Shown here piece by piece: positions 9,551-33,118 of a stretch of DNA of 35,889 nt. Made by a program: the position numbers and the translations under genes. Below the pieces are notes generated by a model that had not been told where the DNA came from, searched no databases, and saw only the letters and a program-made list of their open reading frames with translations. Each line of letters opens with the position of its first letter. The first letter of the stretch is position 1. This DNA is from a virus: positions 1 to 35,889 of the IMG/VR virus record IMGVR_UViG_3300042475_004263. The stretch is one strand, 5' to 3'.

Positions 9551-10117
9551 ATGGCGGAACCACGGATCATGTCGCCCAAGGAATACGGGCTGTCGGTCGG
9601 CTATGCGCCGGGGCAGTCGATCGAGGGCGCGGAGTTGGCGAAGTTCAAGGCGGAATACGCGAAGTATCGCCAGGAGGCGATGACTTCTTGGCAGCTCCGG
9701 ACCGATGCCCAGGGACGGATGGTGCGAGCGAACCCGACGACGGGTCTCGTCATGACCATGACCAATGCCCAAGGACAACCGGTCATGGCGGGGACTTCGG
9801 GTAGCCAGGACCCTTATGCTGCGTATATGAATCCTACCGGCGTAAGCGGGGCCGATCCCGCGGCGGCAGATATGACAAACTCGGCGGCGTTTGCCGGGGT
9901 GCAGCCGACGGCGCCGCCGACGGCGAATGCGGTCGTGCCGGTGAATGTGAATCCGGCGATGCAGCGGACGGCTGGGCCAGCGGTCCCTACCGGGGTAACG
10001 GCGGCGGCGCCGGTGTTCCGGACGGAGGATGATGTGATCTCGGCGGCGCGGGCGGGGCAGCTGTCGAAGGAGCAGGCGCAGCAAATTTTGGTGAATCAAT
10101 TCGGACTCGATCCGTGA
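9551..10117 (+). CDS. Virion-module protein with REP-encoded insert (188 aa)
   Basis: Residues 1-60 are charged and helical (EGAELAKFKAEYAKYRQEAM), the middle is Ala/Pro/Thr-rich and the C-terminal 25 residues form a helix (DDVISAARAGQLSKEQAQQI). Residues about 138-147 (MQRTAGPAVPTG) are encoded by an inverted GTAG-headed palindromic repeat at 9964-9990; the same peptide occurs twice in the next protein. The stop overlaps the next GTG start (GTGA). No family recognised. Confidence 0.6.
   Translation: MAEPRIMSPKEYGLSVGYAPGQSIEGAELAKFKAEYAKYRQEAMTSWQLRTDAQGRMVRANPTTGLVMTMTNAQGQPVMAGTSGSQDPYAAYMNPTGVSGADPAAADMTNSAAFAGVQPTAPPTANAVVPVNVNPAMQRTAGPAVPTGVTAAAPVFRTEDDVISAARAGQLSKEQAQQILVNQFGLDP
9964..9990 (-). 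repeat. REP-like element type B, copy 1 (inverted, in CDS)
   Basis: GGACGGCTGGGCCAGC palindrome with CCCTAC at the right end, i.e. a GTAGGG head on the minus strand. It carries one mismatch in the stem (CGGTCC instead of CCGTCC). Encodes QRTAGPAVPT in frame. Confidence 0.75.
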
Positions 10118-13100
10118 GTAGCCGCTCCGCCAGCGCACTCCTCGATGCGGCTCTGGCCGTGCCGTTCGATCCGGAGGAAGAGGATCGGCGGCAGCTGGCG
10201 CTGGCGCGGCAGGCGACTTGGGACTCGGGGCCGGTGTCGCCTTCGGTGGTGGATATCGCGCCGGAACCGGCGTTCGTGCCGGACCCGCTGGTCGCCGATG
10301 CCGATGCGGCGATGGGGCTGCCGCCGGCGCCGGTGAGTGACGAGCTGGAGCCTGCTCTGCCGATGGAGGACGGCGGGTCCGGAGGCCCCGCCCTACCACA
10401 AGCCGATGAGGATTTGCCGCCTTTGGCGCCGGCGCCTTCGGCGGATCAAAGATCACAGATTTCAAATTTGAAACAGGGAGGCGGGCGGCGGTCGGCTTCG
10501 GCTTTGCTGGCGGAGGTTTTGCCGGAGGCGACGGCAGCTGAGCAGCGGACGGCTGGGCCAGCCGTCCCTACCGGGGGCACGCGGCGGCGGTCGGCGGCGG
10601 CGCTTTTGGCGGATGTGCCGGAGGATAGTGGGGTGCTGCGGCGGGCGGGGGATGTGCCGATCTTTATTGCCCAGGGAATCACGACGGGGCTGAAGGGGCT
10701 GACGGATGCTTTCGGCGCGGATAATGCGGCGTCGCAGGCGCTGGCGGCGAATCAAGATTTTTACCAGGCGCAGCTGTCGCCGGAGGCGCAGGCTTCGCAA
10801 CAGCGGGTGGCGCAGATCCAGGCGGCGGCGGCGGACCAGGGCGTGATGGCGCAGCTGGGTGCCGCGGGCCGGGCGTTTGCGGAGTCGCCGACGGCGTTCG
10901 TGGCGCAGGGCGTGGGGACGATGGCGCCGACGATCGCGCTGGGCGCGGCGGGCAAGGCGGTGGGCCTGGGCGCCCGCGGGGTGCAGGCGGTGCAGACGGC
11001 GACCGGGGCGACGATGGGCGGCGGGATCGTGAAGGGGGAAATTTATCAGGCGGTGGAGCAGGCGATGCTGCAAGCGGGACGTTCGCCGGAGGAGGCGGCG
11101 GAGGCGGCGTCGACGGCGCAGGCTTACGGCGGGGAGAATCTTGACCAGATCCTGGCGGGCTACGGGCTGGGGGCTTTGGCGACGGCGATCGGGGCGGAAC
11201 GCTTGGCGGGTCGGGCGATCGCGGGCGCGGCGGCGCCGACGGGTGGCGTGCTGCGGGTGGCGGGACGGACGGCTTTGCAGGAAGCGTTGCCGGAGGCGGC
11301 GCAGGGTGGACAAGAGCAGCTGGCGCGGAACTTAGCGCAGCAGCGTGAGGATTTCAATGTGCCGACGATGCGCGGCGTGGTGGGCGCCGGGGCGCTCGAG
11401 GGCCTAGCCGGTCTGGCGATCGGCGGTCCGGCGGGCGTGGCGGCGGGGGCGGGCGCCAGGATGGCGCCGCAGGGAGCAAGGAGCACGGAGCAGGGAGCCG
11501 GAGCAATGGCGGCCGCTGCCGCGGCGCCGGCGCCGGTGCGGCGGGTGGTGGTGGAGGCGGATGATGTTTTCGGTGAGGCGACGACGACGGCGGTGGATGA
11601 GCCTGGAGCGGGGAGCATGGAGCCGGGAGCAGGGGATGAGCGGTTTGCTCCGCCGCCAGCAGCTGAGCAACCTGCACCTGCCGCGGCCGAGGAGAATTTA
11701 TTCGGCGAGGTGGAGCAGCGGGGCGAGACGATCGTGACGCCGCCGCCGGCGGCGGCAGAGACGGTGGGACTGGAAGCAGCGGCCGTCGAGCGGTTCCAAT
11801 GGATGCGCAACAAGGAAGGCGGGCAAGCCTACGGCAACCAGCAAATCAGTGTCCCGCTGACTGAGGAAATTTTCGAGCAAGAGATCAAACCGCGTATTCG
11901 CCCAGGCTATGCCGACACGTTGGCGGCCTATCAAGCGAAGCATCCGGACGAAACGCATGCCAGCTACCTGCGCGTGGCAGGACAAGGCGAGTGGCAATAT
12001 AGCGGCGGCGGATCGCTTGAAACCGTGCGACCAAACCCGCCGAATCGGGGCTGGGCAATGCCGGTGGAATCGTTTGATTCACCAATGGCTACAGGGCAAG
12101 CGGCTACGGCTGACTCTGAGGCGTTTCCAACGCAGCAGCGGACGGCTGGGCCAGCCGTCCCTACCGAGACGCAAACGACCAGCGGCGGGGACGCCGCCGC
12201 TACAATGCTGTCGCGGCGGGCGGCGCGGTTTAGCGCCCGAGCCGATCAAACGGCAGGCGGGCAAGGCACGGCGGTCGGAAGCGTGGGGATCGACGAAAGG
12301 ATCATTGCCGACACGTTGCAAGGCATGAGCCAAGCAATAGCCGCCGGCACGCCGGTGGCCGAAGCCGCGGCGCAAGCGAAGACGACCGCCCGCGAATTGG
12401 TGGCAGCACATAATTCCCGGCGCCGCGGGGATGTGAACTGGCAACGCTCGGAAACGCTGGCCGACAAAGAGATCGACAACGCAGCCGCCGACGTGACGGA
12501 TTTACAAGCGGGAAGGATTACGTTCGACGAGCAGGGGTTTGCTCAAGCGGCGGAACCTACAGCGAAGAAGGCGAGCAAGGCCAAGGCTCGGATCAAGAAG
12601 AAGATGTCGACGCAGTCGGGGGCGATCGATGTGTCGATCCTCGAGGACATCGTGGAGTATGGGCGGACGGTCTATCGCGCCGGCATGGATCTGGCGACTT
12701 GGTCGGCGAAGATGGTGAAGGAGTTCGGGCAGGGCGTGGCACAATTTCTACGCCAGGCGTTTGATCGGATCGTGGCGGCCTATCGGGACTCGCGGTTTGC
12801 GGATACGACGGGTGCCGTCGGTGATGTGCGGCCGCGGCAGACGAAGCCTCGGCAGCTGGAGGAGAAGGCGATGCGGAATGAGTCGCTGGCCGCGGAGACG
12901 CGGGCGCGGTTGGGGTCGGAGTATCTTCCTATCTCGCTGAATGCGCAGGCGGAGGCGGCGAAGGAGTGGATCAATACGAATGGGCTGGATGCGGCGAAGT
13001 TGCGGATCGCGCAGCTGTCGGGGGAGGATTCGGTGCCGACGCCGCTGGATTTTGCTATTGGGATCGAGGCGGCCGGGCGTTTGTCGGCGGTGGGCGATCA

Positions 13101-15891
13101 CCAGGGGGCGGCGGATATTGTCTCGACGATGAGTCACCGGGCGACGGGGATGGGGCAGACGATTTCGACGCTCGCCATGATGGCGCGGTTGTCGCCGGAG
13201 GGGATTGTTTTCTACGGGGAGAATATCATTCGGCGTTACATCAATGCGTTGCCGCCGGAGGCGCAGGATCGTATCCGGGCGCTCCAAGCGGAGGTGGCTC
13301 GGCTGAAGGCGGAGCTGGCGAAGGCGAAGTTCGACCAGGGGAGTGAGGTGATCCGGTCGGGCAAGCTGGGGGATGAGAAGATCCAGGATCGGATCAAGCG
13401 GCGGCAGCGGGCGAAGGTGACGGCGGACCTGGGGCCGGCGGCCTCGGGGCCGGAGGTGACGGCGGAGACTCGGGCGCGGGTGATCTCGATGAATCGGGCG
13501 GTGCGTGATGTGCTGCTGGGCGACTCGACGAAGGCGATGGCGACGAAGGCGATCGAGGCGATCCTGCTCGAGCAGGGGAATCTCTCGGCGGCGGAGGCGG
13601 CGGCGATGGCGAAGTCGATCGCGGACGCTTTCTTCAAGCTGATGCGGGAGACGCGGACGCGGTTGACGAATGAGGCGCGGACGAAGGCGCTACCGACGAA
13701 GGCGCGGGGGTTTGAGAAGTTGCTGGAGCTACTGCGGTCGGGCAAGGATGTGTCGGACGCGGAGTTCACGGGGAATGTGGCGCAGCTGCTGGGCTTGCCT
13801 GGCATGACGCCGACGATGGCGCGGGAGCTGCGGGCGCTGGCCCAACGCTATGAGCGGGCGACGGACCCGGATGTGAAGATGGTGCTCGGGCAAATGATGT
13901 TTGAAAAAGCGCATGAGATCATTCCGGTGGAATTCTTCTCGAAGGTGCGGGCGTTTGCTTATCTGGCGATGCTGTTTTCGCCTAAGACGTGGATCAAGAA
14001 TTTCTTGGGCAACCAAATCCTATGGGTGGCGCACATCGGACGGGATGCATTTATCTCGGGGATCATGGACCCGGCGATGTCGTTGCTGACGGGCAAGCGG
14101 ACTTTGTCGGGAGTGCATTTTGCCAAGCGGGCGCGGGCGTTGCTGACGCCGATCGAGGACGTGCGCAAGGGTTACTTGTGGAACAAGCAGGAGAATCCGG
14201 AAGCCAATCAGTGGCAGAATTTCATGGCGGGGGTAAATCATTTGCGGGTGCTGTCGAAGCTGACGTCGCAGAACAAGTTCGAGATCGCGGATGTGAAGAA
14301 TGTGGGCGGGAGGATTTTCTCGTCGAAGTTCATGCGGTTCTTCGACACGGGGCTGTCGATCGCGTTGGGCGCTGGCGACCGGGCGTTCTGGATGGCGGAG
14401 TTCCGCGCCAAGCTGGCGCAGATGCAGGCGGCCGCGGAGAAGAATGGCGAGTGGTCGGGGCAGCCGACGCCGGAGATGATCGAGGCGGCGATGGCGGAGG
14501 CGGCTTATGCCATTTTCCAGAATCCGAATGTGCTGAGCCAAGGGCTGGGGGAGATGCGCAAGTGGACGAATTTCTTGTCAACGGGTGGCCGGTCGAAGGA
14601 ACTCGGACTGGGCACGAACCTTCTAACTTTCACGCAGGTGCCGGGGTCGATCACGTTGCGCGGGGTGATTGATTGGTCGCCGCTGGGATTTATCGGGGCG
14701 CTGTATCGCGGGATGCGGGGGATTCTTTATGCCTCGAGCACGGGGAGAATGGGGGCGAAGTTCGACCAGGCGGCGTTTAACAAGGAATTCACGCAGGCGC
14801 TGCTGGGCACGGGCACGCTGTATGTGGCGGGGTATTACTTGTATGCGCTGGGTATCGTGTCGGCGAGCCGGGAGGATGACGATGACCTGGAGGCGATGCG
14901 GCGGGCGTCGGGGCTGGGGCAATACCGGATCAATGTGACGGCGTTGCGGCGGGCGCTGCTGAGCGGGAACTGGTTTCAGCGGCAGGAAGGGCAGGATGGG
15001 GATTACATCGTGCCGTATGATTGGGCGCAGCCGCTGGCGATCACGTTTGCGGCCGGCGCGGAGCTGGCGGCGCAAGCGGAGCGGACAAGCCGTGAGCAGC
15101 TGAAGAAGGGCGGGGTCAAACCGCAGGGTATGGCGGCGACGATATTCAAGCTGTCGGGCACGAAGTCGCTCGAGGAGTTGCCGTTGCTGAGCGGATTGTC
15201 GTCGTTCATGAAGGCGTGGGGCTATGGCGGCCCGGTGGATGCCGTGGCCAATACAGTGGCCGGAATGCCGGCGATGTTTATGCCGCAGGTGGTGCGGCAG
15301 TGGATGCAGTTCCAAGACAACATGCAGCGGGAGACGCAAGCGGGCGATTCGGTGCAGAGGGAATTTATGAAGGTCTTGGCAACGGTGCCGTGGTATTCGA
15401 AGACGTTTCCGCTGAAGTTCGACACGATGGGGCAAGCCATCGAGCGGTATCAATACGGCGGGAACAATGTTTTCAATGTGCTGCTGAATCCGACGGTAGC
15501 GCGTGAGGTGAAAATGAATCCGGTGATGCAAGAGATCAGCCGCTTGGTCGATGCCACCGGAGAGACGGGCATGGCGCCGAAGAAGGTGGATCGCACAGCG
15601 ACGATCAATGGCCAAAAGGTCGAGCTGACGAACAACCAGATCGCCGCCTACCAATATTACCTGGGGAATTTCACGATGGCGCATTTCACCTGGCGCATGG
15701 CGGCGCCGGTCTATGCCAGGCTGCCGGATGAGCTGAAAGCGAAGATGCTGACCGACGACATCCAGGACATCGACGCCGCGGTGAAGTCCGCCGTGCTCGG
15801 CCACGACATGCGCCGGCTCACGCGCAAGCAACTTTTCTTGCGGAATGCGCTGGTCAATAGTCCGCTCGGGCGGAGTGTGCCGGCGCGGTGA
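10114..15891 (+). CDS. Giant putative ejection/internal virion protein (1925 aa)
   Basis: 1925 residues from a GTG overlapping the preceding stop. Residues 1-180 are Pro/Ala-rich low complexity with three copies of an R-S-A-S-A-L-L motif (about 4-9, 127-133, 157-163). Residues 200-450 are Ala/Gly helices with hydrophobic stretches; 450-720 contain repeat-encoded segments and a small domain near 565-650. Residues 890-1250 are charged helices with a coiled coil near 1052-1070. Near 1280-1305 is AYLAMLFSPKTWIKNFLGNQ, a motif typical of very large phage and mobile-element proteins. A hydrophobic segment lies near 1563-1584 (LLGTGTLYVAGYYLYALGIV). Position as the last virion gene matches T7 gp16. 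No lytic transglycosylase motif was recognised. Confidence 0.65.
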   Translation: MSSRSASALLDAALAVPFDPEEEDRRQLALARQATWDSGPVSPSVVDIAPEPAFVPDPLVADADAAMGLPPAPVSDELEPALPMEDGGSGGPALPQADEDLPPLAPAPSADQRSQISNLKQGGGRRSASALLAEVLPEATAAEQRTAGPAVPTGGTRRRSAAALLADVPEDSGVLRRAGDVPIFIAQGITTGLKGLTDAFGADNAASQALAANQDFYQAQLSPEAQASQQRVAQIQAAAADQGVMAQLGAAGRAFAESPTAFVAQGVGTMAPTIALGAAGKAVGLGARGVQAVQTATGATMGGGIVKGEIYQAVEQAMLQAGRSPEEAAEAASTAQAYGGENLDQILAGYGLGALATAIGAERLAGRAIAGAAAPTGGVLRVAGRTALQEALPEAAQGGQEQLARNLAQQREDFNVPTMRGVVGAGALEGLAGLAIGGPAGVAAGAGARMAPQGARSTEQGAGAMAAAAAAPAPVRRVVVEADDVFGEATTTAVDEPGAGSMEPGAGDERFAPPPAAEQPAPAAAEENLFGEVEQRGETIVTPPPAAAETVGLEAAAVERFQWMRNKEGGQAYGNQQISVPLTEEIFEQEIKPRIRPGYADTLAAYQAKHPDETHASYLRVAGQGEWQYSGGGSLETVRPNPPNRGWAMPVESFDSPMATGQAATADSEAFPTQQRTAGPAVPTETQTTSGGDAAATMLSRRAARFSARADQTAGGQGTAVGSVGIDERIIADTLQGMSQAIAAGTPVAEAAAQAKTTARELVAAHNSRRRGDVNWQRSETLADKEIDNAAADVTDLQAGRITFDEQGFAQAAEPTAKKASKAKARIKKKMSTQSGAIDVSILEDIVEYGRTVYRAGMDLATWSAKMVKEFGQGVAQFLRQAFDRIVAAYRDSRFADTTGAVGDVRPRQTKPRQLEEKAMRNESLAAETRARLGSEYLPISLNAQAEAAKEWINTNGLDAAKLRIAQLSGEDSVPTPLDFAIGIEAAGRLSAVGDHQGAADIVSTMSHRATGMGQTISTLAMMARLSPEGIVFYGENIIRRYINALPPEAQDRIRALQAEVARLKAELAKAKFDQGSEVIRSGKLGDEKIQDRIKRRQRAKVTADLGPAASGPEVTAETRARVISMNRAVRDVLLGDSTKAMATKAIEAILLEQGNLSAAEAAAMAKSIADAFFKLMRETRTRLTNEARTKALPTKARGFEKLLELLRSGKDVSDAEFTGNVAQLLGLPGMTPTMARELRALAQRYERATDPDVKMVLGQMMFEKAHEIIPVEFFSKVRAFAYLAMLFSPKTWIKNFLGNQILWVAHIGRDAFISGIMDPAMSLLTGKRTLSGVHFAKRARALLTPIEDVRKGYLWNKQENPEANQWQNFMAGVNHLRVLSKLTSQNKFEIADVKNVGGRIFSSKFMRFFDTGLSIALGAGDRAFWMAEFRAKLAQMQAAAEKNGEWSGQPTPEMIEAAMAEAAYAIFQNPNVLSQGLGEMRKWTNFLSTGGRSKELGLGTNLLTFTQVPGSITLRGVIDWSPLGFIGALYRGMRGILYASSTGRMGAKFDQAAFNKEFTQALLGTGTLYVAGYYLYALGIVSASREDDDDLEAMRRASGLGQYRINVTALRRALLSGNWFQRQEGQDGDYIVPYDWAQPLAITFAAGAELAAQAERTSREQLKKGGVKPQGMAATIFKLSGTKSLEELPLLSGLSSFMKAWGYGGPVDAVANTVAGMPAMFMPQVVRQWMQFQDNMQRETQAGDSVQREFMKVLATVPWYSKTFPLKFDTMGQAIERYQYGGNNVFNVLLNPTVAREVKMNPVMQEISRLVDATGETGMAPKKVDRTATINGQKVELTNNQIAAYQYYLGNFTMAHFTWRMAAPVYARLPDELKAKMLTDDIQDIDAAVKSAVLGHDMRRLTRKQLFLRNALVNSPLGRSVPAR
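10371..10396 (-). repeat. REP-like element type A, copy 2 (inverted, in CDS)
   Basis: Reads CGGCGGGTCCGGAGGCCC ... CCCTAC on the + strand, the exact complement of the type A element. Encodes GGSGGPALP at about residue 87 of the giant protein. Confidence 0.8.
10444..10475 (-). repeat. Inverted heptad tract (ATTTCAA type) in CDS
   Basis: GATCACAGATTTCAAATTTG with 7-nt periodicity is the complement of the ATCTCCA/ATTTCAA units seen at 23650 and 25804. It encodes QISNLKQ in the giant protein, where such Asn/Lys/Ile codons stand out from the Ala/Pro-rich surroundings. Confidence 0.55.
10545..10571 (-). repeat. REP-like element type B, copy 2 (inverted, in CDS)
   Basis: Perfect palindrome GGACGGCTGGGCCAGCCGTC-C followed by CTAC (GTAGGG head on the minus strand). 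Encodes QRTAGPAVPT at about residue 145 of the giant protein. Confidence 0.8.
11473..11506 (-). repeat. Heptad tract (GGAGCAN type) in CDS
   Basis: Consecutive 7-nt units GGAGCAA, GGAGCAC, GGAGCAG, GGAGCCG, then GAGCAAT. Encodes GARSTEQGAGAM in the giant protein. The orientation is assigned minus by analogy with the inverted repeats in this gene. Confidence 0.65.
11605..11639 (-). repeat. Heptad tract (GGAGCNN type) in CDS, second copy
   Basis: Units GGAGCGG, GGAGCAT, GGAGCCG, GGAGCAG follow one another exactly at 7-nt spacing, encoding GAGSMEPGAG. Same unit type as at 11473, about 100 nt apart. Confidence 0.65.
12138..12164 (-). repeat. REP-like element type B, copy 3 (inverted, in CDS)
   Basis: Identical palindrome to the copy at 10545, again encoding QRTAGPAVPT (about residue 676 of the giant protein) in the same reading phase. 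Confidence 0.8.
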
Positions 15892-23427: not shown

Positions 23428-23648
23428 ACCGCACCAGCTCACCCCTCCGGCACTACAAGCAGAAGATCGGTCTCACCACCACCACCTTCCGCAAATGGCG
23501 CCACACCACCATGCGCGGCCGCCGCACCACCCCCGGCACGCAAGACACCAACTTCCGCGGCCGCCAGCGCGTCAAACGCCTCCGCCTCCGCAAACTCCAA
23601 CGCCAAGCCCGCCAGGTAGGGCGGGGCCTCCGGACCCGCCGCCTCTGA
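23424..23648 (+). CDS. Highly basic small protein with REP-encoded C-terminus
   Basis: 74 residues, very Arg/Lys-rich (RGRQRVKRLRLRKLQRQAR), probably nucleic-acid binding. The last nine residues (VGRGLRTRRL) are encoded by a type A palindromic repeat (23616-23641), so the original stop was probably displaced by repeat insertion. Coupled to the preceding gene by ATGA. Confidence 0.55.
   Translation: MNRTSSPLRHYKQKIGLTTTTFRKWRHTTMRGRRTTPGTQDTNFRGRQRVKRLRLRKLQRQARQVGRGLRTRRL
23616..23641 (+). repeat. REP-like element type A, copy 3
   Basis: GTAGGGCGGGGCC head and palindrome as in the copy at 2089. Forms the 3' end of the small basic gene. Confidence 0.8.
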
Positions 23649-23649
23649 C

Positions 23650-23710
23650 CCTCTCCAATCTCAAATCTCCAATCCCTGCCAACTGCCAACTGCCAACTGC
23701 CAACTTTCCC
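23650..23710 (+). repeat. Heptad tract (ATCTCCA then CCAACTG types)
   Basis: About eight consecutive 7-nt units (CTCTCCA, ATCTCAA, ATCTCCA, ATCCCTG, then CCAACTG three times and CCAACTT) fill the spacer before the helicase ATG at 23721. No Shine-Dalgarno is seen. It directly follows a REP-like element. Confidence 0.75.
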
Positions 23711-25743: not shown

Positions 25744-25748
25744 CCGGG

Positions 25749-25774
25749 GTAGGGCGGGGCCTCCGGACCCGCCG
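25749..25774 (+). repeat. REP-like element type A, copy 4
   Basis: Intergenic copy identical in pattern to that at 2089, followed at 25804-25830 by ATCTCCA/ATTTCAA heptads leading to the ATG at 25832. Confidence 0.85.
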
Positions 25775-26191: not shown

Positions 26192-26246
26192 ACTACTGCC
26201 AACTTTCCCACCTTCCCACCTTCCCACCTTCCCACCTTCCTACCTC
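26192..26246 (+). repeat. Tandem tract (8-nt CCCACCTT units)
   Basis: After ACTACTGCCAACTTT come five nearly perfect 8-nt units TTCCCACC, ending 3 nt before the ATG at 26250. Similar CACCTTC units occur at 1380-1410. Confidence 0.75.
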
Positions 26247-26249
26247 TTT

Positions 26250-26504
26250 ATGTCATACCAACCAAAACCCGACACCTGGACCCTATTCCCGAACAAATTC
26301 AAAAAAGACGGCAACCATCCCGACTTCAGCGGCACCGCGCTGCTCACGTTACCCGACGGCACCCAAGCCGAATACAAACTCACCGCCTGGAAGCGCGTCA
26401 CGAAAACCGACGTCAAATTCATCGGCGGCTTCATCAAAATCAAAGAACCCCAAAAAGAACTTCTCCCCGAAACCGAAGCCGGGGCAGGGGAGAACCCGTG
26501 GTAG
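26250..26504 (+). CDS. DUF736-like/ssDNA-binding-like small protein (84 aa)
   Basis: A small beta-rich protein: MSYQPKPDTWTLFPNKFKKD, HPDFSGTALLTLPDGTQ, AEYKLTAWKR, TDVKFIGGFIKIK. The layout (N-x-F/K-K-D then H-P-D-F-S-G-T, then W) resembles small phage OB-fold-like proteins often found near recombination and replication genes. Its TAG stop is the TAG of the GTAGGG head of a REP-like element, so the repeat abuts or has replaced the original end. Confidence 0.5.
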   Translation: MSYQPKPDTWTLFPNKFKKDGNHPDFSGTALLTLPDGTQAEYKLTAWKRVTKTDVKFIGGFIKIKEPQKELLPETEAGAGENPW

Positions 26505-26526
26505 GGCGGGGCCTCCGGACCCGCCG
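26501..26526 (+). repeat. REP-like element type A, copy 5
   Basis: The GTAGGG head supplies the stop codon (TAG, 26502-26504) of the preceding gene. Followed by GTCACAA-type heptads (26528-26553). Confidence 0.85.
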
Positions 26527-26557: not shown

Positions 26558-26866
26558 ATGGCCGGCAAAGGCAGCAAACCAAGACCCGTGAACCCGCGCA
26601 CCTACGCCGCGAACTACGCCGCGATCCGCTGGTCCGATCCTCCGACTGTTTCCACCCCGGTAGGGTCCGCTGGCCCAGCGGACCGCCCATCATATCCCGA
26701 CTGGATATGCCACGAATGCGGCCGCAAGCACGGCCGCGGCTGGCCCGAAGGCCACGTCGCCACCTTCCACGCCGGCACCTGCGACATCTGCGGCCAATCC
26801 GCCAGCGTCACCGAACCCCGCGACTACGGCCACCTCCGAGCCTGGCCACTGTCAACTGCCAACTGA
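26558..26866 (+). CDS. Zinc-finger protein with REP-encoded linker (102 aa)
   Basis: Basic start (AGKGSKPRPVNPRTYAANYA), then a linker STPVGSAGPADRPSY encoded by a type B repeat (26660-26687), then a treble-clef-like pattern C-H-E-C-G-R-K-H ... C-D-I-C-G (about 64-93). Probably DNA binding. The C-terminus LSTAN and its TGA stop come from a heptad unit, as in the gene at 25832. An upstream in-frame ATG at 26498 would only translate repeat DNA. Confidence 0.6.
   Translation: MAGKGSKPRPVNPRTYAANYAAIRWSDPPTVSTPVGSAGPADRPSYPDWICHECGRKHGRGWPEGHVATFHAGTCDICGQSASVTEPRDYGHLRAWPLSTAN
26660..26687 (+). repeat. REP-like element type B, copy 4 (in CDS)
   Basis: GTAGGG then TCCGCTGGCCCAGCGGA palindrome. 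The stem differs from other type B copies on both arms in a compensating way. Encodes VGSAGPADR. Confidence 0.8.
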
Positions 26867-26880
26867 AAACTGCCAACTCT
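26847..26880 (+). repeat. Heptad tract (CAACTGC type)
   Basis: Units TCAACTG, CCAACTG, AAAACTG, CCAACTC run through the stop codon of the zinc-finger gene up to the ATG at 26887. Confidence 0.7.
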
Positions 26881-27854: not shown

Positions 27855-27885
27855 GAACACGTCACTCGTCACAAGTCACACGTCA
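27855..27885 (+). repeat. Heptad tract (GTCACTC type)
   Basis: ACACGTCACTCGTCACAAGT and similar units fill the spacer before the terminase start at 27894. Confidence 0.7.
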
Positions 27886-29592: not shown

Positions 29593-30126
29593 ATGACCGC
29601 CACCGAAATTGAAATGCCGTTTGCCTCGATGGTCACGTTTGATCCCATCTCGTTACCGGAGGCCAATCGCCTGCTGACGCAATGGGAGCACAAGATGGGC
29701 CCGTGCGTTCGCGGCAACGGCCGCAACTGGTCGCATGCCCTCATTCACGAACGCATTCCGGTCGCCGTCACGATTACTTCCGCACTGATCCGCGAAACCG
29801 TAGGCGGCGCCAACTTTCTTAACCGCGAGAACTGCATCGAGCTCTCTCGCCTCTGCGCCGTGCGGCCGGGCCTCTGCCGCGTTGCCCTTCGCCTCTGGCG
29901 CGAATTCGTCTTCCCGCATCTCGGCTACGAATACGCCATCAGCTACCAAGACGCCGACATCCACAACGGCAACACCTACCGCTTCGACGGCTGGCAACGC
30001 ATCTCTCGGGCTCGATCCGGACCAGACACCCGCAGCAAACGACCCGGCCGCGACAAATATGTCTGGCTCTGGCCTCAACTTTCCCAACTGCCAACTGACA
30101 ACTGCCAACTGACAACTCCTGTATGA
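29593..30126 (+). CDS. Mom-like DNA modification protein (GNAT fold) candidate
   Basis: 177 residues. The core ELSRLCAVRPGLCRVALRLW (84-103) followed by REFVFPHLGYEYAISYQDAD, then HNGNTYRFDGWQRISRARSG, continuing PDTRSKRPGRDKYVW matches the pattern of phage Mom and Mom-like proteins, which modify adenine in DNA against restriction. Such genes commonly sit next to terminase. The last about 17 residues (QLPTDNCQLTTPV) are encoded by heptad repeat DNA and look like an added tail. Starts 1 nt after terL and is coupled to the next gene (ATGA). Alternative: another GNAT-type acetyltransferase. Confidence 0.6.
   Translation: MTATEIEMPFASMVTFDPISLPEANRLLTQWEHKMGPCVRGNGRNWSHALIHERIPVAVTITSALIRETVGGANFLNRENCIELSRLCAVRPGLCRVALRLWREFVFPHLGYEYAISYQDADIHNGNTYRFDGWQRISRARSGPDTRSKRPGRDKYVWLWPQLSQLPTDNCQLTTPV
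30075..30117 (+). repeat. Heptad tract (CCAACTG/ACAACTG type), within CDS end
   Basis: Units CCAACTG, CCAACTG, ACAACTG, CCAACTG, ACAACTC lie inside the 3' end of the Mom-like gene and encode its C-terminal tail. Confidence 0.7.
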
Positions 30127-31079: not shown

Positions 31080-31080
31080 G

Positions 31081-31106
31081 GTAGGGCGGGGCCTCCGGAC
31101 CCGCCG
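31081..31106 (+). repeat. REP-like element type A, copy 6
   Basis: Same head and palindrome as other type A copies, directly after the stop at 31079. Confidence 0.85.
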
Positions 31107-32277: not shown

Positions 32278-32549
32278 CCAGGAAATCGAAGATCACTGCC
32301 GAGCAAATCGAATCCTCGCTCGCCCAATTTTGCACCGAGCTCAAGAAAAGCTCCGTGAAGCTCGATCATGTCCCTGCCGGATGGTTCACCGTGGCACAGC
32401 TCGCCCAAGAACTCGGAAAATCCATCTGTATCACCAGTGAACGCGTCCGCAAAATGGTCAAAGACGGAGCAGCCGAAAGACAAGACTACGTCATCCAACT
32501 CGAACAACGCGCCCGCGCCGTCCCCCACTACCGCCTCACCCCCCGGTAG
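32274..32549 (+). CDS. Winged-HTH-like protein (91 aa)
   Basis: The second half (PAGWFTVAQLAQELGKSICI, then TSERVRKMVKDGAAERQDYV) follows a helix-turn-helix with a wing, ending with VPHYRLTPR. Starts inside the phosphoesterase stop. The stop TAG is part of the GTAGGG head of a type B repeat. DNA binding is likely; a terminase-small-subunit-like role cannot be excluded. Confidence 0.6.
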   Translation: MTRKSKITAEQIESSLAQFCTELKKSSVKLDHVPAGWFTVAQLAQELGKSICITSERVRKMVKDGAAERQDYVIQLEQRARAVPHYRLTPR

Positions 32550-32572
32550 GGACGGCTGGCCCAGCCGTCCGC
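32546..32572 (+). repeat. REP-like element type B, copy 5
   Basis: GTAGGGACGGCTGGCCCAGC-type palindrome. Its TAG (32547-32549) is the stop codon of the upstream gene, and the element ends 8 nt before the next ATG (32581). Confidence 0.85.
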
Positions 32573-32856: not shown

Positions 32857-33008
32857 CATTCACCCCGCTCCTCATCTGCACCATCTGCTACGTCCTTACG
32901 GCGGTCGGCTTCTTCCGCGAAGGCCAAGTCGGCATGGGCATCGCCTTCACCGGCTACACTCTCGGCAACATCGGCTTCTTGTACATCACCATCTACGGCT
33001 CCCGGTAG
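32853..33008 (+). CDS. Small membrane protein (51 aa)
   Basis: Two hydrophobic segments (PLLICTICYVLTAVGFF and MGIAFTGYTLGNIGFLYITI) separated by REGQVG. Starts within the previous stop. The TAG stop (33006-33008) belongs to the GTAGGG head of a REP-like element. Function unknown. Confidence 0.6.
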   Translation: MTFTPLLICTICYVLTAVGFFREGQVGMGIAFTGYTLGNIGFLYITIYGSR

Positions 33009-33027
33009 GGTCGCCGCGGCGACCGCC
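33005..33027 (+). repeat. REP-like element type B variant, copy 6
   Basis: GTAGGG followed by the palindrome TCGCCGCGGCGA and CCGCC. Different stem sequence, same head and architecture; supplies the stop codon of the upstream gene. Confidence 0.7.
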
Positions 33028-33083: not shown

Positions 33084-33118
33084 ATTTGCAGTGCTTTGCA
33101 GTGCATTGCGGTGCTTTG
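33084..33118 (+). repeat. 10-mer tandem repeat (TGCTTTGCAG type), copy 2
   Basis: TTTGCAG, TGCTTTGCAG, TGCATTGCGG, TGCTTTG: same units and order as at 31212, including the TGCATTGC unit in the same relative place. Confidence 0.75.

Follow-up and report, generated by a model that had tools for sequence, protein, structure and literature searches.

In-frame GTAG-type REP hairpins in linkers of phage genes, probably drawn from a Verrucomicrobiota pool

The window, i.e. the whole stretch of DNA analysed here, is an IMG/VR record of 35,889 bases, which was taken in full. Judged by its proteins, among them an SU10-type capsid protein, a Peptidase_S74 protein, an amidase and an integrase, it presumably represents the genome of a tailed phage or a fragment of it. 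Twelve repeat elements of one design are dispersed over the window: the heptamer GGTAGGG is followed by a hairpin, the arms of which mostly span 9 bp around a loop of 3 nt. The hairpins are of type A (GGCGGGGCC-TCC-GGACCCGCC), of type B (GGACGGCTG-GCC-CAGCCGTCC, plus variants) or of a third, shorter type with 7-bp arms and a 2-nt loop. When up to three mismatches are allowed, the type B pattern is found five times in the window, compared to 0.00 expected from 100 shuffles.

Seven of the 12 elements are located outside coding frames, all of them on the plus strand. Four type A copies (2088-2113, 23615-23640, 25748-25773 and 31080-31105) and the single copy of the third type (33004-33024) are intergenic, a further type A copy (26500-26525) directly precedes a small zinc-ribbon protein gene, and in a type B copy (32545-32570) the TAG serves as stop codon for the ORF upstream (...HYRLTPR*). 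The copy at 2088 belongs to the left-hand portion of the structural block, and the statement of the first-pass annotation that all elements of the virion block are minus-oriented is thus incorrect.

The other five elements are read in frame, in three genes. An ORF of 188 aa (9551-10117, plus strand) carries a type B element on its minus strand (site 1, 9966-9991), in which one stem pair is broken in the window and intact in relatives. The adjacent ORF of 1925 aa (10114-15891, plus strand), referred to as the giant gene in the following, harbors three minus-oriented elements: type A at 10372-10397 (site 2, read as DGGSGGPALP) and type B at 10547-10572 (site 3) and 12140-12165 (site 5). Site 3 is flanked by two copies of the motif RRSA(S/A)ALLA(E/D)V, and site 5 is situated at the right edge of a module that is common to the window and the locus L165 (L numbers denote the loci used for comparison). 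As had been noted from the window alone, the three minus type B copies are all read as QRTAGPAVPT in two adjacent proteins, their cores starting 2 nt downstream of the positions given originally, and the inverted type A copy does encode GGSGGPALP. The fifth element, a type B variant in sense orientation (26659-26684, plus strand), had been missed: it is read in frame as VGSAGPADR in the linker of the conserved zinc-ribbon gene (26558-26866, plus strand), which overturns the assumption that all plus-oriented copies are non-coding. Relatives of the zinc-ribbon protein (MAGKGSKPRPVN...) are present in 21 viral loci.

Neither Pfam nor PHROGs returned a significant family for the 188-aa or the 1925-aa protein, a tblastn search of the 1925-aa protein against public phage records yielded no match, and a family search for the phage host in 11 genomes was empty. 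Both proteins may be virion proteins given their neighbors, since a Peptidase_S74 protein is encoded just upstream and the SU10-type capsid protein elsewhere in the window. In the giant protein, the elements are positioned in the N-terminal part, which is predicted as coil, and in a middle part of mosaic composition. With a mean pLDDT of 45, the structure model of the N-terminus supports no more than a placement of the REP peptides in predicted coil.

Comparison with related phages revealed that the elements come and go among otherwise alignable proteins. Site 1 is filled in the window, L117, L083, L118 and L122, and is replaced by other linkers in six relatives (L119, L120, L126 and L123-L125). 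Site 3 is found in the window, L074, L075 and L115, and is absent from L083, which is 99% identical in the neighboring stretch, as well as from L076/L077. The linker of site 2 contains a type A element in the window and L083 and a type B element in L005/L074 and L115, and site 4 is filled only in L005/L074. In the zinc-ribbon linker, 13 relatives have type B and L214/L215 type A, and the linker is empty in L216-L219. Further in-frame copies reside on other phage contigs, namely in L008, in L156/L165 (parts of one contig) and in L146; the latter lacks exactly 18 nt in frame, corresponding to half a hairpin, at the site that is intact in L156. In the more distant giant homologues (37-54% identity), the compared part of the gene has no element of the consensus type, and three odd GTAGGG matches in them do not fit the arms-and-loop design. 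In the intergenic regions, conserved left flanks are followed by hairpins whose type varies from phage to phage and often by an exchanged right flank (e.g. 31080 and 33004 of the window compared to L026 and L011).

As the first-pass annotation had anticipated, the peptide thus occurs at variable positions in homologues. It is absent wherever the palindrome is absent, and a peptide conserved at the same place in a homologue devoid of the palindrome was looked for and not found. Together with linkers that are empty, of type A or of type B, this argues for insertion or exchange of a DNA element rather than for a conserved peptide. No clean empty site, with both flanks and only the element missing, was found among the homologues; the empty forms carry other linker sequence, and a single precise insertion step is hence a conjecture.

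By their architecture and occurrence, the elements are assigned to a family of GTAG-type REPs that extends across the Verrucomicrobiota. GTAG REPs are defined as palindromes preceded by GTAG and are mostly intergenic (PMC3733652, PMC8266576); the elements described here are hairpin-forming palindromes of 20-40 nt with a GTAG end, many dispersed bacterial copies and a mostly extragenic location. The exact type B core was detected in 32 contig stretches from MAGs, nearly all of which are labeled Verrucomicrobia, Chthoniobacterales, Limisphaerales, Akkermansiaceae, Kiritimatiellae, Pontiellaceae or Lentisphaerae, and exact type A in only 3 of 387 genomes of the phylum. Of 302 GTAGGG occurrences in the fetched loci, 170 precede a hairpin, as opposed to 5-10% for six scrambled anchors (GATGGG, GTGGAG, GGATGG, GAGTGG, GTGAGG and GGGATG), a ratio that describes the sample rather than random genomes because these loci were mostly chosen for holding a type B element. 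A seventh string, GGTAGG, overlaps the true anchor and does not serve as a control. The elements were gathered by their GTAGGG head; after scrambled heads, hairpins are much rarer. The full design of GGTAGGG, 9-bp arms and 3-nt loop is seen in 127 of the 170 elements. Changes in the stem are paired, with a covariation score of 0.174 compared to a mean of 0.046 after shuffling and a maximum of 0.017 when the partners are slid; variation is seen in two of the nine pairs.

Copy numbers in bacteria reach 25 for the type B pattern in one MAG of 2.2 Mb, and a single 8-kb locus (L052) contains 18 elements. The REP transposase family Y1_Tnp is encoded in 13 of 16 element-bearing MAGs, the remaining three being possibly incomplete. 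Elements adjoin Y1_Tnp genes in L134 and L135; of all Y1_Tnp genes examined, just a few have an element nearby. Neither of the two tested phage records encodes Y1_Tnp.

The sampled MAG elements are mostly extragenic, about 153 of 157 being located outside clear coding frames; five of these 157 distinct elements pass the coding test, of which about four are credible. The share of five out of 12 in the window differs from this intragenic share with a Fisher p = 8e-5, a rough contrast since the MAG loci were chosen for their elements and their genes called by a simple codon score, whereas the window sites were set by homology. The coding test omits some known sites, since a flank that matches one from a previous record enters the count only once and flanks of low complexity receive poor scores; the known sites were therefore listed by peptide and ORF instead. 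In one MAG gene with RHS-like repeats (L047, L060), a sense type B element is read as VGTAGPAVR.

These observations are probably best explained by GTAG-type REPs of the Verrucomicrobiota pool having entered the phage lineage, including the linkers of at least three of its genes. The element architecture, the in-frame reading and the presence, absence or type exchange in homologues, on which this explanation is built, can be read directly from the sequences, and the original proposal that host-type REP-like repeats are translated in frame is borne out to that extent. Such REPs would settle mostly between genes; some would land in linkers, where the hairpin of ~26 nt is read as about 9-11 residues. 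Host TnpA_REP/RAYT transposases, with folded single strands as their substrate, may provide the mobility, and survival may be due to the tolerance of linkers for extra Pro, Ala and Gly residues. The phase shared by the copies could result from purifying selection, from insertion at AG/CT acting together with codon bias, from the copying of elements from one linker to another or from several of these causes at once.

The minus type B sites in phage genes (sites 1, 2B, 3, 4 and 5 and those of L165/L146, of L156 and of L008) are all read in the RTAGPAVPT phase, and the sense type B elements of the zinc-ribbon site and of L047/L060 use the equivalent VG(T/S)AGPA phase. All three minus phases are open, and eight of eight sites in the same phase are expected by equal chance about 5 times in 10,000, a figure that assumes independent sites, which these may not be. 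Selection for a flexible linker, as proposed in the first-pass annotation, is a possible, if tentative, reason for the shared phase: in both orientations type B is read in the phase richest in Gly, Ala, Pro, Ser, Thr and Val, type A behaves likewise in the giant gene, and the peptides of sites 2 and 3 fall in predicted coil, at very low confidence. REP transposases, however, cut at CT (or CA) beside the hairpin (PMC8266576). By inspection, CT directly follows GTCCG (or GGCCG) on the other strand at seven of the eight minus type B sites in coding frames, and AG dinucleotides in the giant gene occupy codon positions 2-3 in 238 of 336 cases (71%). A CT insertion preference and this codon-position bias could generate the shared phase without selection, with p about 0.06 for the eight sites. 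Furthermore, type A encodes GGSGGPALP in the giant gene but the charged peptide VGRDLRARR in the zinc-ribbon linker of L215, where it is tolerated, so the flexible reading is not obligatory. Of the claim that only the orientation and phase of a flexible linker are tolerated, the single phase of the recognised type B sites is retained, whereas the strict form is weakened by the in-frame sense copies (26659 and L047/L060), the L215 reading and the insertion-bias alternative, other readings being open or tolerated; a preference is still possible.

The REP linkers could also be in-frame recombination joints, at or beside which protein modules are exchanged while the frame is kept; as the REP copies share one phase, an exchange at a REP would preserve it. 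At site 5, the left module of L165 matches the window (83% over 400 nt) with the match ending at the REP, and its right part matches L146 (92% over 5.4 kb) with the match starting at the REP; intergenic sites, too, recurrently retain the left flank while hairpin type and right flank are changed. However, site 5 is the single clear coding event, its crossover falls about 10-30 nt away from the hairpin, the REP of L165 is itself L146-like, and linkers form natural borders of modules in any case. Of the giant gene, about 4.5% is within 30 nt of a REP, which makes one joint event weak evidence. This explanation is accordingly rather unlikely, and a joint function is a lead rather than a result. 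Its extension, in which phase-uniform REP hairpins would act as portable in-frame joints, providing flexible linkers as well as shared DNA for module exchange, with selection keeping both phase and hairpin, appears improbable. To the right of the REP joint, the giant proteins of L165 and L146 contain a zincin-like HEAGH motif; the window differs to the right of its own REP at this position.

That the palindrome simply follows from the codons of an ancestral conserved peptide motif, as the same peptide at several sites might suggest, is very improbable considering that homologues without the palindrome are also without the peptide, that stem changes are paired and that the same hairpins occur between genes and in MAGs.

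Entry of REPs from the Verrucomicrobiota pool into phage genes, the preferred explanation, has its closest precedent in bacteria. Intragenic GTAG REPs, some of them translated, have been described there (Di Nocera et al. 2013, PMC3733652), with most intragenic copies in Opitutus terrae, a member of the Verrucomicrobia, and a location in flexible linkers was suggested by the authors (PMC3733652). The phage elements resemble these in being short, GTAG-ended hairpins that are mostly intergenic and in part translated. They differ in that three phage genes are involved here, whereas the earlier system concerns bacterial chromosomes (the word phage is absent from PMC3733652), and in the presence, absence and type exchange among close relatives that characterize the phage set. 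Rickettsia palindromic elements (RPE) are likewise palindromic repeats in frame in protein genes (PMC10969869, PMC3733652). In contrast to the phage elements, the first-reported RPE families measure about 150 bp and the short repeats of R. conorii end in CGTC; the phage elements, being ~26 nt long and GTAG-ended, were not classified as RPE. The GTAG guide and hairpin are shared with the REP/TnpA_REP (RAYT) systems of E. coli, Stenotrophomonas and Marinomonas (PMC8266576), and the CT beside the hairpin at seven of eight minus type B sites is reminiscent of the RAYT cutting context (PMC8266576); unlike these systems, the two phage records tested have no transposase gene. No earlier report of REPs translated in phage genes was found in the literature searched, which covered few of the subscription journals. 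What is new is the finding of REPs in phage genes, their high intragenic share, the variation of sites between closely related phages and a single mosaic joint next to a REP.

Intragenic REPs, previously recorded in a few bacteria, are thereby extended to phage proteins, and the close relatives constitute a natural presence/absence series. Whether a translated REP is tolerated as junk or serves as a useful linker can thus be tested directly. Host-type repeats are indicated as a source of novel sequence in phage proteins, and perhaps also of joints between modules.

These phages contain dispersed repeats other than REPs as well. Tandem repeats of 7, 8 and 10 nt (AACTGCC, GTCACTC, TTCCCACC, TTGCAGTGCT) are scattered over the window at 691-722, 1376-1406, 23676-23705, 26205-26245, 26848-26878, 27857-27885, 30084-30117 and 33085-33118; none of the AACTGCC, GTCACTC and TTCCCACC repeats was seen in the sampled MAG loci, and all three also occur in related phage loci. 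Inside the giant gene, too, the REPs are accompanied by another dispersed repeat, an array of GGAGCAT/GGAGCAG heptamers (11473-11500 and 11605-11632) that is also in frame (QGARSTEQGAG, EPGAGSMEPGAG). Short repeated motifs flank the REP linkers, RRSA(S/A)ALLA(E/D)V in the window (10450-10640) and EEVDAFLDA in L156/L146.
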